64,000 bases of DNA from Haloplanus salinarum (lineage in GTDB: Archaea > Halobacteriota > Halobacteria > Halobacteriales > Haloferacaceae), in assembly GCF_024498175.1 (NCBI RefSeq), contig NZ_CP101823.1:2300987-2364986 (forward strand), in the 5' to 3' direction. A program made the position numbers and the translations under genes. The notes beneath the pieces are model-generated. The model was given only the letters and a program-made list of their open reading frames with translations. It had not been told where the DNA came from and did not search any database. Numbering within the stretch: position 1 is the stretch's first letter; every line of letters begins with the position of its first letter. Of this stretch, positions 42,359-51,983 are shown in pieces.

Positions 42359-44662
42359 GTGGACGACGTCGTCGACCGACTGCGGGAGCGGGACGGCACG
42401 GTCGCGGACTACCGAGTGGTGTCGGGACGCGACCCGACCTACGCCGACTGCGATCTGGAGTCGCGGCTCGCGGGGGCGCTCGACGAGCGCGGGGTCGACC
42501 GCCTGTACCGCCACCAGGTCGACGCCGTCGAGGCCGTCCGCGACGGCCGCGACGTCGTGTTGGCGACGCCGACCGCGAGCGGGAAGAGCCTCGCGTACAC
42601 GGTGCCGGCGTTCGAGCGGGCGATGGCCGAGGGGGAGCGAACGCTGTATCTCGGCCCACAGAACGCCCTGATCGCGGACCAGGCCGCGAGTCTGGAGGGC
42701 CTCGCGAGGGACCTGGGGTTCGGGAGCCGGGTGTCGGTCGCCACCTACACCGGTCGGCTCTCGCGGACCGAGAAGCGCGACGTCCGGGACCGCCGACCGA
42801 CGGTCCTGCTGTCGAACCCGGACATGCTCCACTACGGCCTGCTCCCGCACGGCCACCGGCTGTGGGAGTGGCTGTATTCGTCGCTCTCGCTCGTCGTGAT
42901 CGACGAGATCCACGGCTACCGCGGCGTGTTCGGGAGCCACGTCTCGCTCGTGCTCCGACGGCTCGCCCGCCTCTGTGAGCGGTTCGGGAGCGACCCCCAG
43001 TTCGTCTGCTGTTCGGCCACCATCGGCAACCCCGTCGAACACGCCGCGCGCCTGACGGGCCGCGAGGCGTCGTCGTTCGCCCTCGTCGACGAGGACACGA
43101 GCGGCCGGGGGCCACGGCACTGGCTGCTCTGGAACCCCCCCGAGTACGAGGGCACGGGCGGCTCGGGGCGCCGCCGGTCGAGTCACGTCGAGACGAAGCG
43201 GCTGTTCGCCGACCTGGTGGCGGCGGGCCACCAGACGCTCGCCTTCACCCGCGCGCGACAGACCGCCGAACGCTACGCGACCGAGAGCGCCGACGCCCTG
43301 CACGACCGGGGCGAACACGGCCTCGCGGGACGGATCGAGGCCTACCAGGCCTCGTTGCGCGACGAGCGCCGCCGCGAGGTCGAGGACGGCCTCCACGACG
43401 GCCGAGTGGCGGGCGTCTGGTCGACCAGCGCGCTCGAACTCGGCGTCGACGTGGGCGGACTGGACGCCGTCCTCCTCGACGGCTACCCCGGGACGCGGAT
43501 GTCGACGTTCCAGCGGGCGGGGCGCGCGGGGCGGGGGTCGGATCCCGCGCTCGTCGCCCTCGTCGCCGGCGAGGACCAGCTCGATCAGTACCTGATGGAC
43601 CACCCCGACACGCTCTTCGACGGCGATCCGGAGCGGGCGACGGTCGATCCCGGGAACGACCACCTGCTGCCGGACCACGTCGCCGCCGCGGCGACGGAGA
43701 ACTGGCTGTCCCGGGAGGACGAGTCACACTTCGGCGACGGCTTCCCCGACGTGGTGGCGGACCTGGAGGCCGCCGGGCGACTGGAGCGCCGGGAGACCGA
43801 CGCGGGCGTCCGCTGGACCCACGCCGGCGGGGGAAGCCCACAGCAGGCGACGAGTCTCCGGAGCGTGGACGACCGCGAGGTGGACCTGCTGGCCGACGGC
43901 GACGTGATCGCCACCCTGGGACTCGACGACGCCCTCCGGGACGCCCATCCGGGCGCCATCTACCACCACCAGGGACAGTCCTACGAGGTGACGGACCTCG
44001 ACCTGGACCGGGACGTCGCGACCCTCCAGGCGACGTGGGCGGACTACTACACTCGGGTGCTGACCGAGAAGTCGGTCGCGGTCGAGCGCGAGCGCGAGTC
44101 GACGGCGCTGTCGGCCCGCCCGGACACCGCGGTCCACCTCGCGGACGTGACCGTCACCGAACGGGTGACGGGGTTCGAGCGCCGGGATGCGGGCCGGGGC
44201 GAGACGCTCGGCCGCGAGACGCTCGACCTGCCGGAGACGACGCTGCGGACGACGGCGCTGTATTTCACCGTTCCGGGCGACGTGGAGGCGGAGATGCGGG
44301 CGCTCGGCGACTTCCCCGGCGGCATCCACGCCGCCGAACACGGCCTCATCTCGCTGTTTCCCCTCCATCTCCTCTGTGACCGGGCGGACGTGGGCGGCCT
44401 CTCGACGCCACACCACCCCCACACCGGCGCGAGCACCGTCTTCGTCTACGACGGCTACCCCGGCGGCGTCGGCCTCGCCCGCGGCGGCTACGAGCGGATC
44501 GAACCCCTGCTCTCGCGGACCGAACGGCTGATCGACGGCTGTGACTGCGCCGGCGGCTGCCCGGCCTGCGTCCAGTCGCCACACTGCGGGAACGCCAACG
44601 AGCCGCTGGCGCCGGCACCCGCGGTCCACCTGCTCGAATCGCTGACCGGGGCGACCGACTAG
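42359..44662 (+). CDS. DEAD/H-box helicase of the Hrq1 type with DUF1998 zinc domain
   Basis: A 767-residue superfamily 2 helicase. The motor has motif I TPTASGKSLAYTVP, motif II VVIDEIHGYRG, motif III CCSATIGNP and motif VI QRAGRAGRGSD. A winged-helix region follows at about 430-500. The C-terminal DUF1998 zinc site is CDCAGGCPACVQSPHCG (four cysteines) near residue 725. This layout matches Hrq1, a RecQ4-like 3'-5' helicase of fungi, bacteria and archaea linked to repair of crosslinks. The start is GTG 42359, because the conserved N-terminal region (YRHQVDAVEAVRDGRDVVLA) begins soon after and no ATG is available. Confidence 0.92.
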   Translation: MDDVVDRLRERDGTVADYRVVSGRDPTYADCDLESRLAGALDERGVDRLYRHQVDAVEAVRDGRDVVLATPTASGKSLAYTVPAFERAMAEGERTLYLGPQNALIADQAASLEGLARDLGFGSRVSVATYTGRLSRTEKRDVRDRRPTVLLSNPDMLHYGLLPHGHRLWEWLYSSLSLVVIDEIHGYRGVFGSHVSLVLRRLARLCERFGSDPQFVCCSATIGNPVEHAARLTGREASSFALVDEDTSGRGPRHWLLWNPPEYEGTGGSGRRRSSHVETKRLFADLVAAGHQTLAFTRARQTAERYATESADALHDRGEHGLAGRIEAYQASLRDERRREVEDGLHDGRVAGVWSTSALELGVDVGGLDAVLLDGYPGTRMSTFQRAGRAGRGSDPALVALVAGEDQLDQYLMDHPDTLFDGDPERATVDPGNDHLLPDHVAAAATENWLSREDESHFGDGFPDVVADLEAAGRLERRETDAGVRWTHAGGGSPQQATSLRSVDDREVDLLADGDVIATLGLDDALRDAHPGAIYHHQGQSYEVTDLDLDRDVATLQATWADYYTRVLTEKSVAVERERESTALSARPDTAVHLADVTVTERVTGFERRDAGRGETLGRETLDLPETTLRTTALYFTVPGDVEAEMRALGDFPGGIHAAEHGLISLFPLHLLCDRADVGGLSTPHHPHTGASTVFVYDGYPGGVGLARGGYERIEPLLSRTERLIDGCDCAGGCPACVQSPHCGNANEPLAPAPAVHLLESLTGATD

Positions 44663-44695
44663 CCGGACGATCACGAGTGTCGCGTCTGCGACGGT

Positions 44696-44735
44696 TTAGG
44701 GAGACCTAATCGACAGGTATTTTAGGTGGCCCTAA
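44696..44735 (+). promoter_or_regulatory. Two tandem DtxR-type palindromes over the RGP-like gene promoter
   Basis: TTAGGGAGACCTAA (44696-44709) and TTAGGTGGCCCTAA (44722-44735) are both TTAGG-N4-CCTAA, centred 26 bp apart. The second covers the TATA-like GGTATTTTA (44717-44725) and ends 12 nt before ATG 44748. The same palindrome precedes the iron transporter at 45945. DtxR/IdeR-family metal regulators bind TTAGG...CCTAA-type sites, so iron-dependent repression is likely. Confidence 0.75.
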
Positions 44736-44747
44736 AGAATGGCGGGC

Positions 44748-45914
44748 ATGGAAACGGACGTCTGCGTCATCGTACCGACCATCAGGGAGTACGAATGCGT
44801 GCGGTCCTACGTCGCGAACGCCGAGCGTCACGGCTTCGACACCGACCGACTGGAGTTCGTGCTGGTGACCGAGGACTTCTGCCCGGCGGGGGAGATGGAG
44901 GCGATGCTCGACGACCTCGGGGTCGCGGGCGAGGTGTTCGACGGGAGCCGGCGCGAGGAGTGGTTCGAGGCCCAGGACGTCGGCGAGTACAGCCACCTGA
45001 TCCCGGCGGCGAGCCACGCCCAGACGAGTTTCGGCCTGCTGTACCTGTGGGCCAACGACCATCCCTACGCCGTCTTCATCGACGACGACACACGGCCCCA
45101 CGAGACCGTCGATTTCTTCGGCACCCACCTCGACAACCTGACCGAGGAGCGGACCGTCGAGTCGGTGCGGTCGGACACGAACTGGGTGAACGTGCTGTAC
45201 CACGCAGCCGACGAACACGGCCTCTACCCCCGTGGCTACCCCTACTCGGCGATGGACGAGACGGTCGAGACTGGCGAGGCCGAACTCACGGACGTCGTCG
45301 CCTCGCAGGGCCTGTGGACGAACGTCCCCGACCTCGACGCGGTGCGCATCCTGATGGACGGCGACCTGCAGGGGCAGGCCGAGACGCGCCTCACCGCCGA
45401 CGACTTCGGCCCGGACTTCGTCGCCGAACCCGGTCAGTATCTCACCGTCTGCTCGATGAACCTCGCCTTCCGCCGCGAGGTCGTTCCCGCGTTCTACCAG
45501 TTGCCCATGGACGACAACGAGTGGTCGGTGGGACGGTTCGACGACATCTGGAGCGGCGTGTTCCTCAAACGCGCTGCGGACCTGCTGGACAAACGGATCG
45601 TCAGCGGCGACCCGCTCTGTCGCCACGACAAGGCGCCCCGGTCGACGTTCGACGACCTGCACAACGAGGTGGCGGGGCTGGAACTGAACGAACACCTCTG
45701 GGAACTGGTCGACGACGTCGACCCGGCCGTCGAGAGTCGGGGCGCCGAGGCGTACGCCACCATCTTCGCCTCGATGGCCGACGCGCTGATCGAGGCGGAG
45801 GCCGACTACCGCAACGGCGAGTTCCTCGCACACGTCGGCGAACACATGCACGACTGGCTGGACTGCCTCGACGAACTCCAGTCCGTCGAGCGCGCGGTGC
45901 CGGCCGACGACTGA
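44748..45914 (+). CDS. Reversibly-glycosylated-polypeptide-like (alpha-1,4-glucan-protein synthase family) protein
   Basis: A 388-residue soluble protein resembling plant reversibly glycosylated polypeptides / UDP-arabinopyranose mutases. It begins METDVCVIVPTIREYECVRS. A DDD metal/nucleotide motif lies in PYAVFIDDDTRPHETVDFFG near residue 110, and EPGQYLTVCSMNLAFRREVV near 230 is a typical family block. Archaeal members are annotated from similarity only; their substrate is unknown. The two palindromes at 44696-44735 put it under probable iron control. ATG 44748 is preferred over 44739 for TATA spacing. A further promoter separates it from the iron transporter genes downstream. Confidence 0.8.
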   Translation: METDVCVIVPTIREYECVRSYVANAERHGFDTDRLEFVLVTEDFCPAGEMEAMLDDLGVAGEVFDGSRREEWFEAQDVGEYSHLIPAASHAQTSFGLLYLWANDHPYAVFIDDDTRPHETVDFFGTHLDNLTEERTVESVRSDTNWVNVLYHAADEHGLYPRGYPYSAMDETVETGEAELTDVVASQGLWTNVPDLDAVRILMDGDLQGQAETRLTADDFGPDFVAEPGQYLTVCSMNLAFRREVVPAFYQLPMDDNEWSVGRFDDIWSGVFLKRAADLLDKRIVSGDPLCRHDKAPRSTFDDLHNEVAGLELNEHLWELVDDVDPAVESRGAEAYATIFASMADALIEAEADYRNGEFLAHVGEHMHDWLDCLDELQSVERAVPADD

Positions 45915-45933
45915 CCGCTCGCCGAATCGGCAA

Positions 45934-45958
45934 GTATAAGTGTTTTAGGGCGGCCTAA
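45934..45958 (+). promoter_or_regulatory. Promoter and DtxR-type operator of the iron transporter
   Basis: GTATAAG at 45934-45940 is a TATA box about 29 nt before the ATG at 45966. Immediately downstream, TTTAGGGCGGCCTAAA (45944-45959) is a perfect 6+4+6 palindrome lying between the TATA box and the start codon, a classical repression position. Its half-sites are identical to those at 44722-44735. Confidence 0.75.
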
Positions 45959-45965
45959 ACGAACT

Positions 45966-47123
45966 ATGGAAGACGATACTTCGCGATCCCTCCGACGGCG
46001 TCGGTTCCTCGCGACTGGCGCGGCCGCGACGGTCGGTGCGCTGGCTGGGTGTAACGGACTGCCTGGCGGAGGTGGCGACGGCGGCGACGGCGGCGACGGA
46101 ACGGTCAGCCTGAGTTCGTTCCGCGGATCCGGACCGCTCATCGAGAACCGGGCGTCGCTGAGCGGGACCCGGATCGCCGACCTCCCCGACCTCTCGGGGG
46201 AGCTCACCATCTACCTCGGTGGCGGCGAGGGAGGGCTGTACCGCGACCTGCTGGCGACGTTCTCGCAGATCTACCCCGACTTCACCGCCCGTCCCCGTGA
46301 GGGCGGGACCGCACAGCTCGCCAACACCATCATCGAAGAGGGCGAGAACACCCCCGCCGACGTGTTCTGGGCGGTCGACGCCGGCTCGCTCGGCGCGGTC
46401 GACGAAGCGGACATGGCGGCGGACCTCTCGAGCGACGTCGTCGAGTCGGTGCCCGAGGAGTTCCACCCCACGGACCGGTGGGTCGGGACCGCGGGCCGCG
46501 CCCGGAGCGTCCCGTACAACACGAACGCGCTCTCGGCCGACGACATCCCGGACACGGTGATGGACTTCCCCGAGACGGAGGCGCTGACGGAGGCGATGGG
46601 GTGGGCGCCGACCTACGGGGCGTTCCAGGCGTTCGTCACGGCGATGCGGCTCATCGAGGGCGAGTCCGCGACCCGCGAGTGGCTCCAGGCCATGCTCGAC
46701 AGCGGCGTCACGGAGTACCCCGACGAGTTCCTGACCTCCAACGCCGTCGCTGACGGCGAGATCGGCGCCGGCTTCGCCAACCACTACTACGCGCTGCGGG
46801 TGCGTTCGGCACGCTCGGACGCGCCGCTCGATCTGGCCTTTACCAGCGGCGACGCGGGCGCGCTGATCAACATCGCCGGCGCGGCGGTCGTCCAGGGCAC
46901 CGAGCAGTCGGACCTCGCCGAGAACTTCGTCCGACACCTCCTCACGGTCGAGGCCCAGGAGTTCTTCGCCACCCGGACGTTCGCCTACCCGATGATCCCC
47001 GGCGTGCCGCCGGTCGGCGGCCTCCCCACCATCGACGAGCTGAACCCGCCGTCGATCGACCTCCAGGAACTCGCGAACGTCGAACCGACCCTCCAGCTCA
47101 TGCGGGACGTGGGCGTGCTCTAG
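45966..47123 (+). CDS. Iron(III) ABC transporter substrate-binding lipoprotein
   Basis: A 385-residue FbpA-type binding protein. The N terminus has a twin-arginine signal (SLRRRRFLATGAAATVGALA) and a lipobox cysteine in LAGCNGLPG, then a Gly/Asp-rich linker. The folded part begins LSGELTIYLGGGEGGLYRDL and contains ADVFWAVDAGSLGAVDEADM, ARSVPYNTNAL and FANHYYALRVRS. The tyrosine pair in NHYYALR fits the iron-coordinating tyrosines of FbpA proteins. It is the first gene of the operon with permease and ATPase, under a DtxR-like site. Iron is the likely cargo. Confidence 0.9.
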   Translation: MEDDTSRSLRRRRFLATGAAATVGALAGCNGLPGGGGDGGDGGDGTVSLSSFRGSGPLIENRASLSGTRIADLPDLSGELTIYLGGGEGGLYRDLLATFSQIYPDFTARPREGGTAQLANTIIEEGENTPADVFWAVDAGSLGAVDEADMAADLSSDVVESVPEEFHPTDRWVGTAGRARSVPYNTNALSADDIPDTVMDFPETEALTEAMGWAPTYGAFQAFVTAMRLIEGESATREWLQAMLDSGVTEYPDEFLTSNAVADGEIGAGFANHYYALRVRSARSDAPLDLAFTSGDAGALINIAGAAVVQGTEQSDLAENFVRHLLTVEAQEFFATRTFAYPMIPGVPPVGGLPTIDELNPPSIDLQELANVEPTLQLMRDVGVL

Positions 47124-47126
47124 GGG

Positions 47127-48764
47127 ATGAGTCGCGAGGATACCGGCGTTCGGCGGGCGGTCGACTGGCTCCGTGACGCCGCCGTCTCGCCGACGCGCGA
47201 GGGCTCCAACCCGCTCGTCGCGGGCGTGGCCGTCTTGGTCGCGGTGACGGTTATCTCGCCGCTCCTCTGGCTGTTCCTCCGGGCGGCCGCGGTCGGGCCA
47301 CGGGAGGCGCTGTCGATCCTCGTGACACCATCGACGGTCGACGTGTTCGTCAACAGCGTCGCGCTCGTGGCGTCGGTCACCGGCCTCTCGGTCGCGCTCG
47401 GCGTCCCGCTGGCGGTGTTGACGGTGTTGAGCGACCTGCCCTTCCGCCGGTTCTGGACCGTGGCGCTGTCGCTCCCGCTGGTGGTGCCGAGCTACCTCGG
47501 CGCGTTCGCGTTCGTCTCGGCGTTCGGCCCGCGGGGCGAACTCGCCGAACTCCTGTCGCCGCTTGGGGTCACGGTGCCGACCGTCTACGGCTTCGAGGGC
47601 GCGACCCTCGTCCTCGGCCTGTTCGTCTATCCGTACGTCTTCCTGACGACCCGGGCGTCCCTGCTCTCGTTCGACACCGAGCAGTTGGAGGCGGCCCAGA
47701 CGCTCAACCACGGCTTCCGATCGGCGTTCCGTCGCGTCGTCCTCCCACAGATCGCTCCGGGGATGACCGCCGGCGCGCTCCTCGTCGCCTTCTACGCGCT
47801 GTCGGACTTCGGGACGCCCGCGATCATGCATTTCGACACGTTCACGCGGGTCATCTACGTCCAGTACAACAACTTCGGCCGCGGGACCGCGTCGCTGCTC
47901 TCGATCCAGCTGCTGGCGGTGACCGCGCTGGTCCTGTTTCTCGAATCCCGGCTCGGCGACGCCGGCGGCGACGGGTACGGCGGCGGCGTCGTCGGCACGG
48001 ACTCGCCCGTCGCCTCGCTCGGGTGGGCCAAGGTCCCGGCGCTCGCGTTCTGTGCGCTCGTCGCCGCGCTGACGCTCGTGGTGCCCGTCGCCATCTTCGG
48101 CATGTGGCTGTTGCGGACCGGGCCCGGCTACGCGTCCGCCGGCATCGGCTTCCAGTGGGACTTCGCCATCAACTCCGTCTACGTGTCCGTCCTCGCCGCG
48201 GCGGGGACGGTGCTCGCGGCGCTCCCCATCGCCTACGTCTCGGCGCGGTCGGACTCGCGGCTCGCACGGCTCCTGGAACGGTCGACGTACGTCGGCTACG
48301 CCGTGCCGGGCATCGTCCTCGCGCTCGCGCTGGTGTTCCTCGGGGCGAACTACCTCCCCTGGCTCTACCAGACGCTCCCCCTGCTGGTGTTCGCGTACGT
48401 CGTTCGCTTCCTGCCACAGGCGGTCGGGTCCACCCGGTCGTCGGTGATGCAGGTGGACGCGAAACTACTCGGCGCGGCCCGCACCCTCGGGGAGACGCCC
48501 CGGGGTGCGTTCCGGCGCGTGACCCTGCCGCTGATCGCCCCTGGACTCGTCGCCGGCGCCGCGCTCGTCTTCCTGACGACGATGAAGGAGCTCCCGGCGA
48601 CGCTCATCCTGCATCCGACGGGCTTTACAACCCTAGTGACCTACATCTGGCGTGTGCAAGAAGCGGGCTACTACGGACGGGCCGCGCTCCCGGCGCTGGT
48701 ACTGGTCGCCGTCTCCGCGCTCTCGATGATCCTGCTCTTGCGACAGGAGGGAGACGATGGCTGA
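47127..48764 (+). CDS. Iron ABC transporter permease (fused FbpB type)
   Basis: A 545-residue permease with about 12 helices in two homologous halves. Each half carries the EAA loop that contacts the ATPase: LEAAQTLNHGFRSAFRRVVL near residue 190 and LGAARTLGETPRGAFRRVTL near 450. The double-length permease is typical of Fe(III)/FbpB and thiamine ThiP-like systems. Neighbours point to iron. It starts 3 nt after the binding-protein stop and overlaps the ATPase gene by 8 nt. Confidence 0.92.
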   Translation: MSREDTGVRRAVDWLRDAAVSPTREGSNPLVAGVAVLVAVTVISPLLWLFLRAAAVGPREALSILVTPSTVDVFVNSVALVASVTGLSVALGVPLAVLTVLSDLPFRRFWTVALSLPLVVPSYLGAFAFVSAFGPRGELAELLSPLGVTVPTVYGFEGATLVLGLFVYPYVFLTTRASLLSFDTEQLEAAQTLNHGFRSAFRRVVLPQIAPGMTAGALLVAFYALSDFGTPAIMHFDTFTRVIYVQYNNFGRGTASLLSIQLLAVTALVLFLESRLGDAGGDGYGGGVVGTDSPVASLGWAKVPALAFCALVAALTLVVPVAIFGMWLLRTGPGYASAGIGFQWDFAINSVYVSVLAAAGTVLAALPIAYVSARSDSRLARLLERSTYVGYAVPGIVLALALVFLGANYLPWLYQTLPLLVFAYVVRFLPQAVGSTRSSVMQVDAKLLGAARTLGETPRGAFRRVTLPLIAPGLVAGAALVFLTTMKELPATLILHPTGFTTLVTYIWRVQEAGYYGRAALPALVLVAVSALSMILLLRQEGDDG

Positions 48765-49887
48765 AGATACACTGGGGATGACCCGTCGGTCGACGACGGA
48801 GACGGGGGATCCGGCGGACGCACCGTCGATGCTGACGCTCGACGGCGTGACGAAACGCTACGGTCCCGAGACGGCGGTCAACGGCATCGACCTGACGGTC
48901 CGCGACGGTGAACTGCTCACGCTCCTCGGGCCGTCGGGGTGTGGCAAGACGACGACGCTCCGCATGATCGCCGGCCTGGCGATGCCGACGAGCGGGCAGG
49001 TCCGCGTCGACGGCGAGGCGGTCGCCGCCGACGGCGACGGCGTCCCCCCCGAACAGCGGGACGTGGGCATGGTGTTTCAGGAGTTCGCCCTGTTCCCGCA
49101 CCTGACCGTGGCCGAGAACGTCGGCTTCGGCCTCGACGACTGGGACGCCGACGAGCGCGAACGCCGAGTGGCCGACCTGCTCGATCTGGTCGGCCTCTCG
49201 GAGTTCGCGGACCGCTCGCCCGAGAACCTCTCGGGCGGGCAACGACAGCGCGTCGCGCTCGCCCGGTCGCTCGCGCCCGAACCCGAGGTCCTCCTGCTCG
49301 ACGAGCCCTTCGCCAACCTCGACATCCGACTCCGCGAGCGCATGCGCGAGGAGGTCCGCCGCATCATCAAGGAGACGAACGTCACCGCCGTCTCCGTCAC
49401 CCACGACCAGGAGGAGGCGCTCTCCATCTCCGACCGGGTGGCGGTGATGAACGACGGTCAGATCGAGCAGGTGGGCCGACCGGAGTCCGTGTTCGAGCAT
49501 CCGAAATCCCGGTTCGTCGCGGACTTCCTCGGGCAGGCGAGTTTCCTAACCGGCCGGCTGGCCGAGAACCACATCGACACCGGTCTCGGGACGCTCTCGG
49601 CCGACCTGCTCCAGGGGTTGAGCTCCGAGTACGACGGCGCCAGGATCGACGTGCTCGTCCGCCCGGACGACCTGCGGGCGACGCCGTGTGACGGCGACCG
49701 CCGGACCGGCAACGGCACGCTCGTCGGTCGCCAGTACACCGGCCCCTCGTTCGTGTACGCCGTCGAACTCGACACGGGCGACGTCGTCCACTGCGAGCAC
49801 AACCACTCGACCGACCACGAACTCGGCGAACGGGTCACGGTCGACCTCGTCGCCGACCACACGCTGGCGTGGTACCCCGCGGAGTGA
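48757..49887 (+). CDS. Iron ABC transporter ATP-binding protein (FbpC type)
   Basis: A 376-residue ATPase. Walker A is LLGPSGCGKTTTLRM near residue 60, the Q-loop is MVFQEFALFPHLTV, the signature is NLSGGQRQRVALARSLA, and Walker B is VLLLDEPFANLD. The switch histidine is in VTHDQEEALSISD. A C-terminal TOBE-like regulatory domain covers about 265-370. It energises the preceding permease. Its stop codon overlaps the GTG start of the next gene by 4 nt (GTGA), so the glycosyltransferase may be co-translated with the iron operon. Confidence 0.92.
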   Translation: MAEDTLGMTRRSTTETGDPADAPSMLTLDGVTKRYGPETAVNGIDLTVRDGELLTLLGPSGCGKTTTLRMIAGLAMPTSGQVRVDGEAVAADGDGVPPEQRDVGMVFQEFALFPHLTVAENVGFGLDDWDADERERRVADLLDLVGLSEFADRSPENLSGGQRQRVALARSLAPEPEVLLLDEPFANLDIRLRERMREEVRRIIKETNVTAVSVTHDQEEALSISDRVAVMNDGQIEQVGRPESVFEHPKSRFVADFLGQASFLTGRLAENHIDTGLGTLSADLLQGLSSEYDGARIDVLVRPDDLRATPCDGDRRTGNGTLVGRQYTGPSFVYAVELDTGDVVHCEHNHSTDHELGERVTVDLVADHTLAWYPAE

Positions 49888-51983
49888 CCGACGGATCGGG
49901 GCGGCTCACCCCCCGAACCTACCGCCTGCTCGCCGCCGCCCTCGCCGTCGGCGGGGGGTTGCTCGTCCTGCTGGTGGCCACGCGCCTGTTTCCGTATCAC
50001 TCGCTCAACCACGACGAGGGCGTCTACCTCCAGCAGGCGGCGATGCTCCTCGACGGCCGGGTGTTCCTGCGACCGCCCGTCGCGGAGGCCTACCGGCCGT
50101 GGTTCTTCGTCGAGACGCCCGACGGGGCGCTGTACTCGAAGTACGCCCCCGTCCCGGCGGTGATGTTCGCCGTCGGCGAACTCCTCGGGGGCTACCGCCT
50201 CGCGCTGGCGGGAATCGCGGCGGCCAACCTCGCGCTCACCTACACCCTCGTCGCCGGGGTGTTCGACCGGCGCCGAGGCCTGCTCGCGGCCGTCTTCCTG
50301 CTTACCTCTCCGCTTTTCCTGATCGAGTCGTCGGTCTTCCTCCCGTACGCGCCGACGACGCTCCTCAACCTCGCGTTCGCGGTGGCGTACTTCCACGCCC
50401 GGCGGACCGGGAGCCCCCGGGCCGCCGCCGTCGCCGGCCTCGCGGTGGGGATGGCCTTCTTCGCCCGCCCCTACACGGCCGTCCTCTTCGCGACGCCCTT
50501 CATCGTCCACGCGCTGTGGACGCTTCGCGGCCTGGATCGCGCGGTCGTCGCCCGGCAGGCCGCGACGGCCGCGCTCGGCCTCGTCGGGGTCGGCGTGGCG
50601 CTCGGGTACAACGCCCTCACGACCGGCGACCCGCTCGTGTTCCCCTACGAGGCGTTCGCCCCGCGGGACGGCCTCGGCTTCGGCCACCGCGAGATCCTCG
50701 CGTACTCGCGGCAGTACACCCCCGAACTGGCCCTCCGGGTCAACGGCCGGGTGCTCGCGATCCTGTTCGGCGAGTGGGTCGCCGCCGGCCCCGTCGGAAC
50801 GCTTCTGGCGGCCGTCGGCGTCGCCGGCCTCCTCCGGCGCCTGTACCGCGACCGGTCGGCCGACCCGCGGCGACTCGTCCTCGCCGGCCTGTTCGTCTCG
50901 GTGGCCGTCGGCAACGTCTACTTCTGGGGGAACCTGAACGTCCTCGGCGACCTCGGGCAGGCGAACGACGGACTGGTGGCGAACCTCGGGCCGTACTACC
51001 ACTTCGACCTGCTGGTGCCGACGGCGGCCTTCGCCGCCCACGGCGCCGTGACCGGCGGCGAGCGGGTCCGGGCGACGCTCGCGGCGCGGGTCCCCGGCGC
51101 CGCGCGGCGACGCCGGATCGGGGTCGCCGTCGCGGTGCTCTGTCTCCTCGCGTTCGCGGTGCCGGCGGCGACGGCGCTCGCCGACCCCGTCGAGCGCAAC
51201 GCCGAGGTGACCGAGACGTACCGGAGCGCGTACGCCCCTGTGGACGGGATCGAGGACGGATCGCTCGTCTTCCTCCCGACGCCGTACGGCGACTGGATGA
51301 ACCACCCGTTCCAGGCGCTTCGCAACGATCCCGACTTCGACGGCGACGTCGTGTACGCGCTCCGGGAACGACAGTTCGACGTCGTCGACGCCCACCCCGG
51401 GCGGACGCTGTACCGCTACACCTACCGCGGGACGTGGGCGCCGACCGCCGGCCAGACGGTGCGCCCGCGGATCCAGCCCGTCGACCACGTCGCCGGCGAG
51501 CGGGTCGTCCTCGACCTGCGACTCGGCGTGCCGCCGGGCGTCGAACGCGTCTCCATCCGCCTCGAATCGGAGGAGGGGCAGGCCTACTACGTCACGAACG
51601 GCACGCCGACGCTCGCCACCCCGTCGCTGGTCGTCGGCGACGGCCGCGCCCGCCTCCGCGGCGTGACGGCGGTGGACGGGAACGCGACGGTCCCGGTCGA
51701 CGACCGCGACGAACTGCGGGTGACGGCCTTCGCCGACTACGGCGCGGGCAACGGGTTCAGCTACCGACTCGAACTGCCGACGGCGACCGAGGGCGACCGG
51801 ACCCGCGCCCTGACGCCCTACGTCGAGGTCTGCCGGCGGGCGCTGCGGTGTGGCGGCGAGGCGGCATACGTCCCCGAGACGGCGCGCGACGGTGTCGTCG
51901 TGGAACACGACCTCCGAGCGACGAACGCCACGGTGTCGGCCGACCGCGACCCCGCGCTCACAGCAGCGTCAACCGGGTCGTGA
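49884..51983 (+). CDS. GT39-like membrane glycosyltransferase
   Basis: A 699-residue membrane protein. The first roughly 425 residues hold about ten to eleven helices. An acidic pair in the first outside loop, LNHDEGVYLQQAAMLLDG, is in the place of the catalytic DE of GT-C enzymes (ArnT/PMT, GT39). The C-terminal 270 residues are a soluble beta-rich domain outside the membrane. Such enzymes use polyprenyl-phosphate sugars. The start GTG 49884 overlaps the iron ATPase stop by 4 nt. The last 26 nt overlap the convergent Vms1-like gene. A link with the RGP-like sugar protein upstream is possible but unproven. Confidence 0.8.
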   Translation: MTDGSGRLTPRTYRLLAAALAVGGGLLVLLVATRLFPYHSLNHDEGVYLQQAAMLLDGRVFLRPPVAEAYRPWFFVETPDGALYSKYAPVPAVMFAVGELLGGYRLALAGIAAANLALTYTLVAGVFDRRRGLLAAVFLLTSPLFLIESSVFLPYAPTTLLNLAFAVAYFHARRTGSPRAAAVAGLAVGMAFFARPYTAVLFATPFIVHALWTLRGLDRAVVARQAATAALGLVGVGVALGYNALTTGDPLVFPYEAFAPRDGLGFGHREILAYSRQYTPELALRVNGRVLAILFGEWVAAGPVGTLLAAVGVAGLLRRLYRDRSADPRRLVLAGLFVSVAVGNVYFWGNLNVLGDLGQANDGLVANLGPYYHFDLLVPTAAFAAHGAVTGGERVRATLAARVPGAARRRRIGVAVAVLCLLAFAVPAATALADPVERNAEVTETYRSAYAPVDGIEDGSLVFLPTPYGDWMNHPFQALRNDPDFDGDVVYALRERQFDVVDAHPGRTLYRYTYRGTWAPTAGQTVRPRIQPVDHVAGERVVLDLRLGVPPGVERVSIRLESEEGQAYYVTNGTPTLATPSLVVGDGRARLRGVTAVDGNATVPVDDRDELRVTAFADYGAGNGFSYRLELPTATEGDRTRALTPYVEVCRRALRCGGEAAYVPETARDGVVVEHDLRATNATVSADRDPALTAASTGS

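Follow-up and report, generated by a model that had tools for sequence, protein, structure and literature searches.

A conserved iron-type palindrome precedes ferric-iron uptake and glycan genes of haloarchaea and probably marks one regulon

Genes for ferric-iron uptake and genes for glycan synthesis carry the same palindromic promoter box in many haloarchaea, and there is a good case that they form one iron-type regulon across the group. The starting point is a cluster in Haloplanus salinarum, found in a 64-kb window (the whole stretch of DNA analysed, 64,000 nucleotides), that holds a GT75/RGP-family gene, an Fe(III) ABC operon and a gene for a DUF7846 membrane protein (Table 1). The regulon would tie iron uptake to a lipid-linked, possibly furanosyl, glycosylation route. 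The strongest evidence for unity is that the box follows genes of the set when they are rearranged. The box itself is a known type of signal; as far as the accessible literature goes, a regulon content that includes glycan genes is new. One conserved switch would thus join an orphan archaeal GT75, a DolP-hexose transferase family whose glycan is unassigned, DUF7846 and a Gluconate_2-dh3/GMC pair to ferric-iron uptake, and the shared function of these orphan genes is thereby open to genetic test in Haloferax.

Table 1. Features of the Haloplanus salinarum cluster (window positions) and members of a small protein family (locus positions)
Feature	Position	Strand	Evidence
Distal iron-type box TTTAGGGAGACCTAAT, upstream of RGP gene	44695..44710	.	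exact match
Proximal iron-type box TTTAGGTGGCCCTAAA, upstream of RGP gene	44721..44736	.	exact match
GT75/RGP-family gene, probable NDP-pyranose mutase	44751..45914	+	Pfam RGP E=1.5e-17; MtdL structures E=2.4e-20; catalytic residues invariant 81/81
Iron-type box TTTAGGGCGGCCTAAA, upstream of SBP gene, ATG 6 nt away	45944..45959	.	exact match
FbpA-type Fe(III)-binding lipoprotein (SBP), putative; Tat signal and lipobox	45966..47123	+	best PDB match 7w3w E=4e-57
Fe(III) ABC transporter permease, two BPD_transp_1 domains	47127..48764	+	
Fe(III) ABC transporter ATPase, ABC_tran and TOBE_2	48757..49887	+	
DUF7846 membrane glycosyltransferase (predicted), GT-C fold, conserved last core-cluster gene	49869..51983	+	Pfam DUF7846 E=4.4e-52
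Members of the ~55-residue family	L147:3964-4125, L149:3322-3498 (Haloplanus salinarum); L125 near 3769; L141:5040-5204		

The palindrome and its conservation

The palindrome searched was TTTAGG-N4-CCTAA(A/T). As the initial annotation had claimed, three exact copies are present, starting at 44695, 44721 and 45944, and 100 dinucleotide shuffles of the window yielded zero matches. A genome-wide search, which had also been suggested, was made with the 14-mer TTAGGN4CCTAA and found 13 exact sites across the whole 3.45-Mb Haloplanus salinarum genome. Four other haloarchaeal genomes contain 9 to 16 exact copies each of TTTAGGN4CCTAAA, and 0 copies of the reversed control pattern. The spacer is taken as four bases because the five-base variant, TTAGGN5CCTAA, has 0 sites in the Haloplanus salinarum genome.

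How well is the box kept elsewhere? The comparison covered 80 loci from many haloarchaeal genera, with the box of the SBP gene counted in 78. Upstream of the RGP gene it is exact in 73/80 loci and has at most one mismatch in 79/80; the corresponding figures for the SBP gene are 64/78 and 68/78. About 300 shuffled palindromes gave 0 matches on the same loci, and within the 80-locus set the permease, ATPase and DUF7846 genes inside the operon are never preceded by a box. In the box of the RGP gene the half-sites hold ~1.95 bits per position, and the spacer and flanks ~0.3, a distribution that marks a putative protein-binding site. The box lies 3' of an AT-rich, TATA-like stretch and mostly ~4 to 20 bases before the start codon, which is the position expected if a bound protein were to block initiation.

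Tandem boxes had been described over the RGP promoter. Both exist, and the proximal one, deeply conserved across the loci, is found in all 11 Haloplanus RGP promoters that could be read; the tandem arrangement breaks down within the genus itself, the distal box (44695) occurring in 5 of these 11. Loss of boxes from orthologous loci, proposed as grounds for rejecting the first reading, is therefore a property of the distal box and not of the proximal one. A further box is situated ~1.1 to 1.4 kb 5' of the RGP gene in 34 loci, and in Halorubrum sodomense such a box precedes an LPG_synthase_TM flippase-like gene. LPG_synthase_TM was considered as a constant member of the regulon and set aside: its best match in Haloplanus salinarum is a GT2-flippase fusion with no box nearby. 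In Halocatena marina (L068) the RGP, DUF7846 and GT2 genes are kept, the SBP gene is absent from the locus, and no good box is present at RGP or GT2, an exception that weighs against a joint regulon.

Genes of the cluster

The RGP/glucan-protein-synthase-like identity first given to the leading gene holds (Table 1); its Pfam RGP score is 64.2 bits against a gathering threshold of 23.8. The longest ATG open reading frame begins at 44739, but the conserved start is probably the ATG at 44751 (METD...), since that ATG is common to the Haloplanus genus. Catalytic positions were mapped by MtdL numbering from PMC9937993. D115-117 (the DXD Mn site), R165, D198, R266, D269 and H296 are invariant in 81/81 haloarchaeal RGP sequences, and equivalents of MtdL Arg159 (acceptor), Asp195, Arg257, Asp260 and His287 (Mn ligand) are all present; Gln229 is replaced by Met, Arg289 by Lys and His292 by Arg. 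The gene product is a GT75 enzyme with key catalytic residues intact and a probable NDP-pyranose mutase. The positions that set the base are mixed, with Pro at MtdL Thr13 (plant-like) and Ser at Ser86 (MtdL-like), so that no nucleotide sugar substrate is predicted. Directly 5' of the RGP gene, at 42359-44662, is an HRQ1/MrfA-like DEAH helicase with a Zn-binding domain; such a helicase gene also precedes the RGP gene in Haloferax, Salinigranum, Halogranum and Halobium.

The identification of the following genes as an Fe(III) ABC operon is borne out. The best solved relatives of the SBP are ferric-binding proteins, 7w3w being an iron-utilization protein, and the NHYY ligand motif with its adjacent Tyr pair is found in 78/78 SBP relatives; by sequence the SBP is a putative FbpA-type Fe(III) binder, and the permease and ATPase follow it. 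The 80 haloarchaeal loci retain the gene order RGP - SBP - (permease - ATPase) - DUF7846; in most of the Halorubrum and Natrinema relatives the locus lacks the permease and ATPase. The proposed association of iron transport with a glycan enzyme stands.

DUF7846 models as a predicted GT-C glycosyltransferase. Its AlphaFold model (pLDDT 83.9) matches the folds of OST, PMT, ArnT and ALG9 with Z of 20-26. In the NHDEGVY segment (an N-x-D-E motif) N47, D49 and E50 are invariant, and D49 and E50 supply the acidic side chain close to the first outer loop that, together with the fold, characterizes GT-C enzymes. A search of the PDB by sequence gave no match for DUF7846, the similarity being one of fold only, and a Pfam PMT_2 assignment was rejected at 25.3 bits, below the gathering threshold of 26.1.

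Further members and the fate of the box on relocation

The box is found on additional glycan and oxidoreductase genes. A GT2 gene adjoins the cluster in Halorubrum, and a search of 19 further genomes found its ortholog as a single copy in every one; it falls within family NF041391, the haloarchaeal dolichyl-phosphate hexose transferases (397 bits, cut-off 375), and its promoter has a box in 56/57 genomes counted. The box at GT2 promoters (e.g. L144:4873) also keeps the sequence of its 4-base spacer, in most cases as YAAA or CGAA, unlike the RGP box. The Gluconate_2-dh3 protein has a twin-arginine N-terminus.

What happens when genes of the set move? The Gluconate_2-dh3 gene has its own box in 12/12 genomes when detached and in 0/8 when directly 3' of DUF7846; the GMC oxidoreductase gene has one in 7/7 genomes when split from Gluconate_2-dh3 and in 0/12 when joined to it; and for the permease and ATPase genes the figures are 4/4 when detached and 0/62 inside the operon, counts that represent few, phylogenetically non-independent moves among related genomes, so that Fisher values overstate their significance, and that leave out two partial boxes with two mismatches each (L035, L087). 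A box that follows genes through rearrangement points to one functional unit. A detached DUF7846 gene with its own box was also sought among the haloarchaeal genomes, with no clear case.

The iron signal and its regulator

Many of the boxes in Haloplanus salinarum and the four other genomes precede genes for Peripla_BP_2 siderophore-binding proteins; other boxed genes encode a FecCD permease, detached FbpC-like ATPases and a DUF5059-plastocyanin protein (three boxes). Haloplanus salinarum encodes two Fe_dep_repr_C genes and a small boxed Fe_dep_repress (DtxR-like) gene. The latter (L146:2999-3433, 145 aa) carries two boxes, has only its N-terminal Pfam domain above the cut-off and is apparently self-regulated. 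The initial reading of the palindrome as DtxR-like is upheld in that the boxes mark iron-uptake genes beyond chance and the genome has DtxR-family genes.

Siderophore transporter genes of Haloferax carry a DtxR-type signal (PMC11349517), and that paper cites Leyn and Rodionov 2015 for a 'ferR' signal. The box is very probably this known haloarchaeal DtxR-type iron signal, because siderophore transporters and a DtxR-like regulator gene carry it; identity with the published motif and iron control of the box are suggested by regulon content and literature together.

Other boxed genes are of separate interest. The DUF5059 lipoprotein (L143:1276-3759) has a C-terminal plastocyanin-like domain and may be an EfeO-like iron protein. 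A family of ~55-residue proteins with the motif CES.PG..VFLE..NTDGWI.SD and no Pfam match has two paralogs in Haloplanus salinarum; a box lies ~24 bases before the start in three genomes, also at the second paralog. An RND permease is induced 44-fold by iron starvation (PMC11349517); the CARDB protein of Haloferax L133 was considered as a partner of this permease and discarded, as no such gene follows.

A proposed mechanism and its alternatives

We infer an iron response, a regulator, a pathway order and a product along the following lines. The palindrome would serve as operator for an iron-dependent regulator of the DtxR family; the Fe(II)-bound regulator would block initiation at the box, and iron limitation would relieve the block, so that cells short of iron would express a ferric importer of FbpABC type together with a route of lipid-linked glycosylation. 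In that route GT75/RGP might supply an NDP-furanose and the GT2 enzyme place a hexose on dolichyl phosphate; the flippase-like protein, whose gene has a box in Halorubrum among others, might flip the lipid-linked sugar outward, where DUF7846 as the GT-C enzyme would pass it to a surface acceptor and the Tat-exported Gluconate_2-dh3/GMC pair would oxidize sugar outside the cell. The idea of a glycan made under iron limitation, offered at the outset for the RGP-like protein, is strengthened, because more glycan genes share the box. The likeliest outcome, to which we give somewhat less than an even chance, is a change in cell-surface glycan or glycoprotein that aids the capture of ferric iron, or shields the envelope when iron is scarce. 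The fullest version, a near-universal low-iron envelope pathway running from GT75 mutase through DolP-linked furanose and GT-C transfer, with an exported sugar oxidase producing a ferric-binding surface glycan that feeds FbpABC, is speculative and, taken whole, unlikely.

Could the glycan genes instead serve the transporter? DUF7846 might O-link a DolP-sugar to the exported SBP lipoproteins, whose linkers would require glycosylation at high salinity; control by iron would then amount to co-expression with the client. The core of RGP, SBP and DUF7846 does stay together even where the permease and ATPase have moved away, and protein O-mannosyltransferases are among the enzymes that the GT-C model resembles. 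Decoration of the SBP leaves the Gluconate_2-dh3/GMC oxidoreductase in the regulon unexplained, however, and is in our view rather unlikely. The oxidoreductase pair is the centre of another possibility, whereby it makes sugar acids that bind Fe(III) and are imported by FbpABC, the surface not being the point. Family likeness to the gluconate 2-dehydrogenase small subunit, the twin-arginine signal and close co-regulation fit such chelators, but the GMC and Gluconate_2-dh3 families accept many substrates and sugar acids alone do not require GT75, GT2 or GT-C, which makes this a distinctly improbable explanation.

It can also be asked whether the metal is iron at all. The regulator might be of DtxR/MntR type and respond to manganese, with GT75 controlled because it requires Mn2+; GT75 enzymes bind Mn2+ (PMC9937993) and the small boxed regulator scores weakly with MntR models. 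The boxed transporter genes of the five genomes are nevertheless of ferric or siderophore type, with no recognised Mn transporter among them, and manganese control appears highly unlikely. Even with iron as the signal, the GT-C enzyme and the DolP-hexose transferase could serve ordinary glycosylation that is incidentally iron-controlled.

Comparison with known systems

The joint regulon of iron uptake and glycan genes shares with the haloarchaeal DtxR-family iron regulon (Idr1/Idr2, SirR, TroR) a palindromic promoter box ahead of transporter genes for siderophores and Fe(III), as well as DtxR-family proteins. It differs from that regulon as described in having glycan and sugar-oxidizing genes as constant members, a membership that is undescribed in the accessible literature, which excludes the regulon papers themselves. 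The haloarchaeal GT75 resembles MtdL, Hyg20 and plant UAM/RGP by homology, with the DDD motif and the position of the glycosylated Arg kept, but the characterized members named in PMC9937993 are bacterial and plant only, whereas the haloarchaeal gene is tied to iron transport. HVO_1613 is a DolP glycosyltransferase reported outside N-glycosylation (PMC9943897); the boxed GT2 is of the same general type, a member of the dolichyl-phosphate hexose transferase family, and from its family and its spacing to the RGP locus it appears to be the HVO_1613 ortholog.

The ArnC/ArnT modification of lipid A has a similar outline, in which a GT2 enzyme loads polyprenyl phosphate, a GT-C enzyme transfers the sugar outside, and control is by metal. 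ArnC is among the PDB matches of the boxed GT2, and ArnT has a Z of 22 to the DUF7846 model. PmrAB, an Fe3+-sensing system, controls the ArnC/ArnT modification. The haloarchaeal regulon is compared with it by analogy and with no claim of homology, and its iron logic is expected to be the opposite.
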